Assembly (NCBI GenBank): GCA_000724175.1
Contig: JPGV01000033.1
Location: 1 to 51,504 of the forward strand
DNA length: 51,504 nucleotides
From: [Candidatus Thermochlorobacteriaceae] bacterium GBChlB
GTDB taxonomy: Bacteria; Bacteroidota; Chlorobiia; Chlorobiales; Thermochlorobacteraceae
Direction: 5' to 3'
Part shown: piece after piece, positions 12,930-15,048 of the stretch
Numbering within the stretch: the first letter of the stretch is position 1
Layout of the letters: each line of letters opens with the position of its first letter
Notes under the pieces: model-generated
Databases searched by the model: none
The model's input: the letters and a program-made list of their open reading frames with translations, nothing else
What the model was told of the DNA's origin: nothing
Translations under genes and position numbers: made by a program

Positions 12930-13277
12930 TCAACTGCCGAGATTAAGGTCTTTGAGAAAATCCATGCCGCCGCCTTGCATCAATCCGCCGGTTATTTTCA
13001 CCATTTCTTCTTGCGCAACACGCGTTGACTCCTCGAGCGCTTTATTGACGGCAGCGACAATAAGGTCTTGCGCCATATCGACCTCTTCGGGCTTCAAGAG
13101 GTCTTTTTCAATATCAATTTTTAAGATGCGTTGCTTGCCATTGGCGACGACTTTGACCATCCCGCCGCCCGCTTCGCCTGACACGGTAATTTTTTCAAGC
13201 TCGCGTTGGACTTCTTCCATTTTTTGGCTCATTTGTTGAACTTGCTTCAACATTCCTGCCATGTCTTTGAGTTGCAT
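12930..13277 (-). CDS. YbaB/EbfC family nucleoid-associated protein
   Basis: This is a 115-residue DNA-binding protein of the YbaB/EbfC family, which forms tweezer-like dimers that coat the nucleoid. It shows the family's N-terminal coiled helix ([19 protein letters not shown]), the central [19 protein letters not shown] strand segment, and the [17 protein letters not shown] helix, ending with a Gly/Met-rich tail. In many bacteria it follows dnaX and precedes recR; here neither is adjacent, and instead it heads a series whose next member, two base pairs on, encodes a T9SS-secreted propeller. Length and motifs are typical. Confidence 0.95.
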
Positions 13278-13310
13278 AAGAAATGATGTTAGCTATTTAA
13301 GAGATAAATT

Positions 13311-13617
13311 TAGTCATTGGTCATAGCCTTCGCTGATGTTCGCCGACATAGAATCCGCCGCTCTGACCAACTGCAATCCTATCGAACGCTTGCTGAATAG
13401 GTCAAATGTTTCTGTTGTTTTCCAAACGGTTTCTCCAATATTCATTGCCAACTGGTAGACTTTCAAATCGTCCAGTTTGTCCTCATCGTCGTTTTCGCTT
13501 CTTGCTACCCTCTCTTTTTGCTGCTTTTTCTTTCACCTTTTCATTCTCTTTACCCATTTCCTTCAATTTACTTTAACCTATCTCAAACAAACATCTCTTC
13601 CCGATGACCAATGACTA
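13311..13617. mobile_element. Small element with perfect 14-bp inverted ends carrying a broken four-helix-bundle gene
   Basis: TAGTCATTGGTCAT at 13311-13324 and its exact reverse complement at 13604-13617 bound a 307-bp segment; the match extends to 17 of 18 bases outward (AATNTAG...). Between them lies a degraded gene of the four-helix-bundle (23S rRNA intervening-sequence/S23) family. The right end supplies the TAG stop codon of the phosphohexomutase gene and the left end supplies the truncating stop of the four-helix-bundle gene. The segment fills nearly the whole gap between ybaB and the mutase gene. That it is mobile is inferred from the inverted ends and from the known insertion habit of this gene family inside rRNA; no transposase or clear target duplication was seen. 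Confidence 0.55.
13314..13557 (-). pseudogene. Four-helix-bundle (S23/IVS-type) protein, frameshifted and truncated
   Basis: Reading from the ATG at 13557 (preceded by GAAGGAA) gives a Lys-rich MGKENEKVKEKAAK start that stops near 13486. One frame over, without its own start codon, the sequence continues DKLDDLKVYQLAMNIGETVW, then FSKRSIGLQLVRAADSMSAN and ISEGYDQ, then stop. DLKVYQLAM, QLVRAADS and NISEGY are hallmarks of the four-helix-bundle family encoded by 23S rRNA intervening sequences and by free-standing loci. Normal members run about 115-130 residues; this one ends right after the EGY motif, exactly inside the left inverted repeat. So there are two lesions: a one-base frameshift and loss of the 3' half. 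Family assignment is firm despite the short length. Confidence 0.75.
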
Positions 13618-15048
13618 GATTAACCCTTTCGCAAACCCAATCACGTCATTCACACGCTGCTCCGAACTTGCTTCGGCGTAGAACCGCACGACGGGCTCGG
13701 TGCCGCTAAACCGAACTAAGAGCCAACTGCCGTCGTTGCATATCAGTTTTACGCCATCACGTCTGTCCACTCTTGCCACCGATGTTCCTGCCACGTGTGT
13801 TGGCGTGTCGTTTTGAAGTTTGGCGAGCAGGGCATTTTTCTTTTCGTCTGTCAGTTTCAAGTTTTCGCGTATGGTGTAGAAATGCCCGTATGTGTCATAA
13901 AGCATTTGCAGATACTTTGAAAGCGGCTGCTTGGTTCGCGCCGTAATTTCAACAAAGAGCAAGCACGCCAAGATACCGTCCTTTTCGGGAATGTGCTGAT
14001 AGACCGACAGTCCATTGGATTCTTCGCCGCCCACAATCATATCTTCGCGCATCATGATTTCGCCGATGTATTTGAACCCGACCGGCACGTCGTAGAGTTT
14101 CACGCCCTCTTTCTCGGCAATGGCATCGATAAGGTGCGTCGTCGCCAATGTTCTGACCACACAGCCTTTCCACTGCGGCTTATGTTTGAGCGCATAATGA
14201 AATAAAATCGCTAAGAGTTGATTGGCTTGCAAATACGTTCCTGTTGAATCAACGACGGCGTATCGGTCGGCATCGCCATCGTTAGCAATGCCAATCACGA
14301 ATTCACCGTTGTCTCCAAGGTATTTGACGCGGGCAATGAGTTCAGGAATGCGGCTTTCCGACGGCTCTGGCGCGCGTCCGCCGAAATAGACATCACGGTT
14401 GGTGTGCATGGCGTCGACAGCGACGCCAAGATTTTTCAAAAACTTATCCGTGTAATCGCGCGCCGTGCCATACATCGCGTCATAGACAACTTGAATTCCC
14501 GACGACGCAATTATGTCCGAGTCTACAATTTCCGCCAACCGCTTCAAATACGGTTCATTTGGATTGATACGTTCAATCATTCCCGACTTCAGGAGGTCGT
14601 CAAACGGCGCGTAAGTGTTCGGAGTTGTTTTGGTTGCGTAAAGCTCCTCGAAGTAGTGCTCGAATTTTTTGGTGATGTCGGGCAAGGCGGGCGCGCCATC
14701 GTCAGTTGAAAATTTCAAGCCTTGATACTCTGGCGGATTATGCGACGCGGTAAAGTTCAGCCCGCCGCCCGCTTGTCGACGCCTGATTTCATAGCTGATA
14801 ACGGGCGTTGGCGTATCGCGCTCACATAAAAAAGCCTTGATGCCATGCGATGCCAATACCTGTGCCGCAAGGTTCGAGAACTCCTCGCCGAGAAACCGCG
14901 TATCGCGTCCAATCACAATGCCTTTCTTCGATAGGTCCGTCTCCTTCAGATAACGAACAATCGCTTCGAGAACGATGATGAGATTATCCACCGTAAATTC
15001 ATCGGCGATAATTGCCCGCCAGCCTGATGTGCCAAATTTAATTTTCAT
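13615..15048 (-). CDS. Phosphoglucomutase/phosphomannomutase (alpha-D-phosphohexomutase)
   Basis: This 477-residue enzyme moves phosphate between C1 and C6 of a hexose, feeding glycogen or nucleotide-sugar synthesis. All four family signatures are visible: the phosphoserine loop NFTASHNPPEYQG (Ser ~102), the metal-binding DGDADR (~257-262), the sugar-specificity loop GGEESNGLSVY and the phosphate-binding RFSGTEPVVRFYAEA near the end. The start MKIKFGTSGWRAI is standard. The sugar-binding loop has GEESNG, typical of PGM/PMM enzymes rather than GlmM (which has GEQSGH), but glucose versus mannose preference cannot be read. Its stop codon TAG lies inside the inverted repeat of the adjoining small element. 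Confidence 0.94.
   Translation of the reverse strand: MKIKFGTSGWRAIIADEFTVDNLIIVLEAIVRYLKETDLSKKGIVIGRDTRFLGEEFSNLAAQVLASHGIKAFLCERDTPTPVISYEIRRRQAGGGLNFTASHNPPEYQGLKFSTDDGAPALPDITKKFEHYFEELYATKTTPNTYAPFDDLLKSGMIERINPNEPYLKRLAEIVDSDIIASSGIQVVYDAMYGTARDYTDKFLKNLGVAVDAMHTNRDVYFGGRAPEPSESRIPELIARVKYLGDNGEFVIGIANDGDADRYAVVDSTGTYLQANQLLAILFHYALKHKPQWKGCVVRTLATTHLIDAIAEKEGVKLYDVPVGFKYIGEIMMREDMIVGGEESNGLSVYQHIPEKDGILACLLFVEITARTKQPLSKYLQMLYDTYGHFYTIRENLKLTDEKKNALLAKLQNDTPTHVAGTSVARVDRRDGVKLICNDGSWLLVRFSGTEPVVRFYAEASSEQRVNDVIGFAKGLI

Follow-up and report, generated by a model that had tools for sequence, protein, structure and literature searches.

The window, the whole 51.5-kb stretch of DNA that we analysed, contains a pair of exact inverted 14-mers, TAGTCATTGGTCAT at positions 13311-13324 and its perfect complement at 13604-13617. 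The pair lies between a gene for a phosphohexomutase-type protein and a gene of the YbaB/EbfC family, and it encloses the remains of a gene of the S23 family, which is known from intervening sequences (IVS) in 23S rRNA. Mutase, S23 remnant and ybaB are all co-directional on the - strand. In the order of transcription, the features are as follows (a dot stands where no strand is assigned):

13615..15048, - strand: phosphohexomutase-type protein, upstream neighbour, ending ...FAKGLI*
13618..13621, strand (.): imperfect extension of the 5' arm, giving an 18-bp pairing at 94%
13604..13617, - strand: 5' arm, TAGTCAT TGGTCAT, preceding the S23 gene in the direction of transcription, of the kind of the heptamer arms around intact S23 genes
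13483..13557, - strand: decayed S23 gene, N-terminal part in the other frame (MGKENEKVKEKAAKREGSKKRKRR)
13323..13487, - strand: S23/IVP remnant DEDKLDDLKVYQLAM...NISEGY, out of frame with the start of the gene, whose second half is missing
13311..13324, - strand: 3' arm, reading ATGACCAATGACTA in the direction of transcription and exactly complementary to the 5' arm
13307..13310, strand (.): imperfect extension of the 3' arm, giving the 18-bp pairing at 94%
12930..13277, - strand: YbaB/EbfC family gene, downstream neighbour

Each 14-bp arm consists of two heptamers, TAGTCAT and TGGTCAT. The pair lengthens to 18 bp at 94%, with one mismatch (13307-13324 and 13604-13621), and the loop between the two arms measures 279 nt. 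The mutase ends with a stop codon (TAG, 13615-13617) that forms the first three bases of the 5' arm, the truncated S23 gene takes its own (TGA, 13314-13316) from the 3' arm, and the start codon of ybaB lies 33 bp from the 3' arm. Read on the - strand, the S23 gene runs through MGKENEKVKEKAAKREGSKKRKRR (13483-13557), changes frame and continues as DEDKLDDLKVYQLAM...QLVRAADSMSANISEGY (13323-13487), with DEDKLDDLKVYQLAMNIGETVWKTTETFDLFSKRSIGLQLVRAADSMSANISEGY as the full translation after the frameshift. This second part matches the profile PF05635 (S23 / 23S_rRNA_IVP) with 41.2 bits against a cut-off of 33.8 (E=2e-10). The match covers positions 2-50 of the 106 positions of the profile; its second half is absent and the gene is cut at EGY. 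With a frameshift and a C-terminal truncation in place of an intact four-helix bundle, the gene is a pseudogene. A preliminary description of this DNA had reported exact 14-bp inverted ends, a frameshifted and truncated gene of the 23S rRNA intervening-sequence family between them, a left end that cuts this gene at EGY and a right end that supplies the stop codon of the mutase; our analysis agrees on all of these points.

The 14-bp inverted repeat by itself is only mildly unusual and proves little, because first-order random windows contain a mean of 0.2 such pairs and 4 of 30 contain at least one. It is the sole exact inverted 14-mer pair with a loop of 30-500 bp in the window, and its stem of 14-18 bp folds modestly better than shuffled sequences (z=-1.75). 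The reality of the pair rests instead on its location and on its agreement with the subtype of the gene that it encloses. Indeed, the 5' arm begins at the upstream stop codon, the unit lies in sense to the operon, and the heptamers TAGTCAT and TGGTCAT are of the type that surrounds closely related S23 genes.

The mutase-ybaB junction and other S23 copies in the genome

Three relatives from the family of the window (genus g2; L049, L050 and L051) have the mutase gene next to ybaB, with a spacer of at most a few tens of bases and no S23 gene. The spacer is likewise short in a more distant member of the family (L052), and genus g3 has a different gene downstream of the mutase. Because the junction is short and free of S23 in these same-family genomes, the unit is most simply interpreted as an insertion in the lineage of the window, at a boundary that the diverged spacers of the relatives do not place at base level. 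The comparison of empty sites that the preliminary description had proposed was thus favourable to it.

A search of the 3.05 Mb genome that allowed up to one mismatch detected no second copy of the 14-bp ends. The same description had named this search beforehand as a test that might refute the unit. Formally its outcome is the refuting one, but it does not refute the unit, since the ends recur elsewhere: intact S23 relatives in other genomes bear ends of this kind, arranged in the same way. The genome of the window presents four further S23 hits (L011, L013, L014 and L015), whose neighbours we named from their sequences. L011 is an intact gene without clear arms. L013 (G000:C4:22218-25472) is a decayed copy with inverted ends of the AGTATGA type between two ABC permease genes, and L014 and L015 are near-identical decayed copies between nrdA and nrdB on two contigs (the end of G000:C15 and the start of C26).

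Inverted heptamer arrays around S23 genes

We gathered S23 loci by protein or profile alone, ignoring their flanks, and scored arms as the ungapped inverted-repeat score between the two flanks, with shifted positions in the same loci as controls. For the subfamily of the window (80 loci from named genomes, 79 of them scored), the score reached at least 14 in 61/79 loci and in none of 305 shifted controls. Grouping loci by shared flanks reduced 143 usable loci to 69 independent sites. A score of at least 14 was found at 44 of these 69 sites as opposed to 1/608 controls, and a score of at least 12 at 48/69 as opposed to 7/608. Mucilaginibacter and Pedobacter are strongly represented in the sample, an imbalance that the tests at the level of sites and across phyla were meant to limit. 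The scan is anchored on gene ends and misses the unit in the window (L012), where the truncated gene enters the arm; this unit was therefore scored separately. About one third of the S23 sites lack clear arms by this score, including the intact L011.

The arms are tandem arrays: of 96 elements, 59 have a best period of 7 or 14 and another 32 one of 8, and control DNA gave no signal of a 7- or 8-bp period. The 5' arm begins a median of 5 nt past the upstream stop codon and the 3' arm finishes a median of 1 nt before the next ORF start. At some loci the next gene takes its start codon from the arm itself (L104, which reads MNQISIVVA..., and L145). A complete unit measures about 490 bp and comprises a 5' array, a small S23 gene for which no separate promoter is obvious, and a 3' array whose sequence is complementary and inverted relative to the 5' one. 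Such inverted arms frame intact S23 genes in several bacterial phyla. The 14-bp ends in the window are the proper ends of this gene family and their two heptamers are those of such a unit: what remains in the window is a dead S23 unit, internally deleted and with only two heptamers in each arm. The 14-bp inverted ends of the preliminary description need to be revised in this respect. They are there, but as remains of inverted 7-8 bp arrays whose sequence depends on the subtype, and not as the fixed terminal repeat of a transposon.

Some units were found in particular surroundings. Two occupy CRISPR operons, one (L247) between cas6 and cas4 in Anabaena sp. 90, its 5' array being about 300 bp long, and one (L250) between cas10 and cmr3 in Picosynechococcus PCC 7003. 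The S23 gene of L072 departs from the 7-8 bp arrays: it stands between very long inverted arrays built from longer palindromic units (GACGCCTTCGGCGTGCGA...).

The sequence of the arms goes with the S23 protein rather than with the host. Across 45 non-redundant elements, the 5-mer similarity of arms correlates with the identity of the S23 proteins (Mantel r=0.70; 0 of 1000 permutations), and the correlation is r=0.75 for pairs from different phyla, whereas flanking DNA under the same 5-mer measure yields r~0. S23 proteins of different phyla with at least 40% identity have arm words in common. GTCA-heptamer arms occur on both sides of 20/93 S23 genes close to that of the window and of 0/41 distant ones. 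Conversely, the two S23 units of a single strain can differ in their arms, as in M. flavus, M. terrigena and Nostoc ATCC 53789. Because non-coding arms would diverge at such distances unless they were constrained, these patterns suggest that the arm sequence is recognised.

S23 genes lie in sense to both neighbours at 50 sites, in antisense at 8 and between converging or diverging genes at 10 (sense versus antisense, p=1.6e-8); these neighbours come from a simple ORF caller, and single orientation calls may be wrong. Copies at the same junction in related species diverge along with their flanks, for example in Pedobacter between genes of 265 and 170 aa, which we read as thyA-folA from their sequences. 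In five pairs of related copies, dN/dS of S23 was 0.00-0.07. Such values show that the S23 protein is kept, under purifying selection at orthologous sites.

Heptamer arrays are also found alone. Some genomes present dozens to hundreds of array matches without S23, and these arrays, inverted or single, follow stop codons. In two genomes of the order of the window (G053 and G025), arrays occur in pairs at gene ends, on either side of unrelated cores that include host terminators. A single conserved core for paired arrays lacking S23 was considered and discarded, the cores of these two genomes being unrelated to each other. Among 101 Mucilaginibacter genomes, the number of arrays was not tied to the presence of a matching S23 gene (13/28 versus 25/73, p=0.36). 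Since arrays without S23 are abundant and their number is independent of S23 in Mucilaginibacter, arrays can now spread or persist without the gene. At L267-L276 (G053 and G025), GTTGATA arrays begin at a stop codon or close to one; where genes converge, they flank the native terminator region. A Cytophagales genome (G187) contains many dispersed hairpins of 100-200 bp with GTCATT arms and no S23 (L158-L169); their short loops carry recurring words such as CTTTCAGGGTAAAAA, as in a MITE- or REP-like family.

Empty sites and kinship with known systems

The same element is found with 80-90% identity next to different neighbours in two groups of loci (L078/L079/L089 and L141/L149/L153). Two plasmids of Nostoc sp. 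ATCC 53789 have an operon in common at 91-99% identity, in which S23 units of different subtype occupy different junctions, so that each plasmid provides the empty site of the other. At the first site, the empty sequence is GGTTCTAGGTTATG and the occupied one GGTTCTA-unit-TTCTAGTTATG; at the second, they are GTGAGATAAGTTATG and GTGAGGTAA-unit-TTATG. A further junction on Nostoc plasmids, at TraM, exists in four versions: the first is empty and 50-52 bp long, the second contains an S23 unit, the third (L253) has arms without S23, and the fourth carries a different insertion. One Nostoc site presents a possible 5-bp duplication, TTCTA, and none is clear at the others; the comparisons of empty and occupied sites in the plasmid operon and at the TraM junction revealed no constant target duplication. 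Parts of the spacers seem to have been replaced at these junctions. At the UbiD junction of Mucilaginibacter, the upstream genes were mostly different and a single S23-free pair had a similar upstream gene (L232).

An S23 gene lies inside 23S rRNA on plasmid AZO_p2 of Azospirillum lipoferum (Rfam LSU at 783-3981 of L251), and the arms of this unit are inverted heptamers (TCAGAGGACGGATGACAGAGGACGGAGGAC). In the published rRNA IVS of Coxiella burnetii and Leptospira, an S23/IVP gene stands within complementary, stem-forming ends (PMC4990558). The IVS of Coxiella measures 428-444 nt and has a 28-bp stem, and excision of rRNA IVS by RNase III has been published (PMC4990558); the same 2016 paper on Coxiella still called the function and origin of S23 proteins and IVS unclear. 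Operon units and rRNA IVS thus have one plan in common, as judged from one rRNA example. They are similar in size, encode the same protein family and lie in sense to the host transcript, and the arms of the window are likewise complementary, stem-forming ends around an S23 gene. They differ in that the arms of operon units are 7-8 bp arrays at stop and start codons. The unit of the window, moreover, sits between mutase and ybaB, two operon genes, rather than in an rRNA helix, and its gene is a truncated pseudogene.

Heptamer arrays of the TAACTGA type have been published from Beggiatoaceae, Cyanobacteria and Bacteroidetes; no agent is known for them, and S23 is not mentioned there (PMC4679880). 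These arrays and the cyanobacterial STRRs resemble the arms of S23 units in unit length, in their intergenic location near stop or start codons and in their occurrence in Cyanobacteria and Bacteroidetes. However, they have been described as direct repeats with no link to S23, whereas the arms of S23 units are inverted and matched to the subtype. At L022, an S23 gene is framed by TCAGTAA/TCAGTTG arrays, near the complement of the TAACTGA heptamers, which we take as a lead only. REP/RAYT systems and MITEs have in common with S23 units their short inverted sequences, non-autonomous derivatives and intergenic location, but S23 units have no ends in common with Y1 transposases and no fixed termini, and no constant target duplication was found in the empty and occupied sites compared. 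Finally, the Avd protein of diversity-generating retroelements is a related four-helix-bundle protein (PMC10053308), although the genome of the window has no reverse transcriptase. In the open-access literature that we searched, we found no report that ties S23 genes to inverted heptamer arms matched to their subtype, be it at operon junctions or within a rRNA IVS.

Explanations of the unit and their meaning

The locus is probably best explained as a dead, internally deleted S23 intervening-sequence unit that was inserted between two co-directional operon genes. Most likely, such a unit would be transcribed together with its host operon, as classic rRNA IVS are. The 5' and 3' arrays would then pair into a long double-stranded stem, and a double-strand RNase such as RNase III would cut it, as we infer for the operon copies by analogy. 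The flanking cistrons would remain translatable after cutting, so that the insertion would be nearly harmless. The S23 protein probably binds its own arm sequence. In the copy in the window, the gene bears a frameshift and a deletion that fused the EGY codon with the 3' array, perhaps through an ATG microhomology. Removal by RNase III, binding of the arms by S23 and the mode of movement are what we infer for these units. Evidence against this explanation comes from the third of S23 sites without clear arms, from the arrays that lack S23 and whose number in Mucilaginibacter is not tied to it, and from the short stem in the window with its modest folding score.

The alternatives can be weighed against the same data. 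The heptamer arrays could form a repeat system of their own, spreading behind stop codons, in which S23 settles or on which it rides, the pair in the window being a leftover. Arrays without S23 at dozens of places per genome, after stop codons and around unrelated cores, are consistent with this view, as are the array numbers in Mucilaginibacter, unlinked to the presence of S23, and the TAACTGA arrays described with no mention of it (PMC4679880). Yet arms match the S23 subtype across phyla and differ between two units of one strain, arms are all but absent from the control positions of these loci (1/608), and the genome of the window has an armed S23 with no other copy of the ends. We therefore consider an independent array system unlikely. 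An ordinary hairpin, a terminator or mRNA-stability element enclosing a chance coding relic, was already disfavoured and appears hardly credible. Its arms span only 14-18 bp in the window, where one such pair is near chance (0.2 expected), but the loop is 279 nt long, the enclosed sequence matches the S23 family and the same ends surround intact members of the subfamily. The preliminary description had raised a conserved terminator-like hairpin as the alternative to its own proposal, and this alternative fails on the relatives, which have no hairpin at the mutase-ybaB junction.

Two further explanations invoke a mover. A non-autonomous, MITE-like DNA transposon mobilised in trans by a host Y1 transposase of the IS200/REP type would account for the inverted ends, the small size, the armed derivatives lacking S23 (L253), the patchy presence at orthologous junctions and the same element at different sites (the two groups of loci above). 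We nevertheless rejected a Y1 transposase as the mover and regard this explanation as rather improbable. No Y1 gene was detected in the genome of the window, the Y1 transposases in S23-bearing genomes have palindromes of their own and none is flanked by heptamer arms on both sides, no constant target duplication was found in the comparisons of empty and occupied sites, and the ends are variable arrays as opposed to fixed termini. Alternatively, S23 could act like the related Avd together with a reverse transcriptase, the unit being copied through RNA. S23/IVP and Avd are indeed related four-helix-bundle proteins (PMC10053308), and the sense bias and the location in operons are compatible with an RNA stage. 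Dependence on a reverse transcriptase was, however, rejected: PF00078 is absent from the genome of the window and from three single-contig genomes with S23 units (G022, G025 and G034). In addition, 8/69 sites are antisense, and we judge a retroelement-like unit very improbable. None of the transposases found explains the movement of the unit, and neither does a reverse transcriptase. The delimited mobile unit of the preliminary description accordingly stands in part: the ends belong to the unit of the gene, the unit is an insertion judging from the empty junction in relatives, and it is internally deleted. DNA transposition as its mechanism finds no support, as we found no fixed target duplication at the sites compared, no ends in common with Y1 transposases, and neither a Y1 transposase nor a reverse transcriptase in this genome.

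For S23 units in general, we tentatively propose a broader reading, which is conceivable at present. S23/IVP genes may be the cargo, and the likely agent, of widespread selfish intervening sequences of operons, and rRNA IVS may be only those members that reached an rRNA gene. Every S23 protein would recognise the heptamer arms of its own unit, and this recognition would drive the upkeep of the arms and their spread to stop and start junctions without a known transposase or reverse transcriptase.

The role and the spread of S23 proteins and IVS elements have been a question for decades. Subtype-matched arms shared by operon units and rRNA IVS would provide the S23 protein with a defined DNA or RNA target. 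They also give the boundaries of the unit, its empty sites and a link to the separately reported heptamer arrays of no known agent. Armed S23 units thereby offer a handle on how these old and puzzling insertions are built and on how they may spread.
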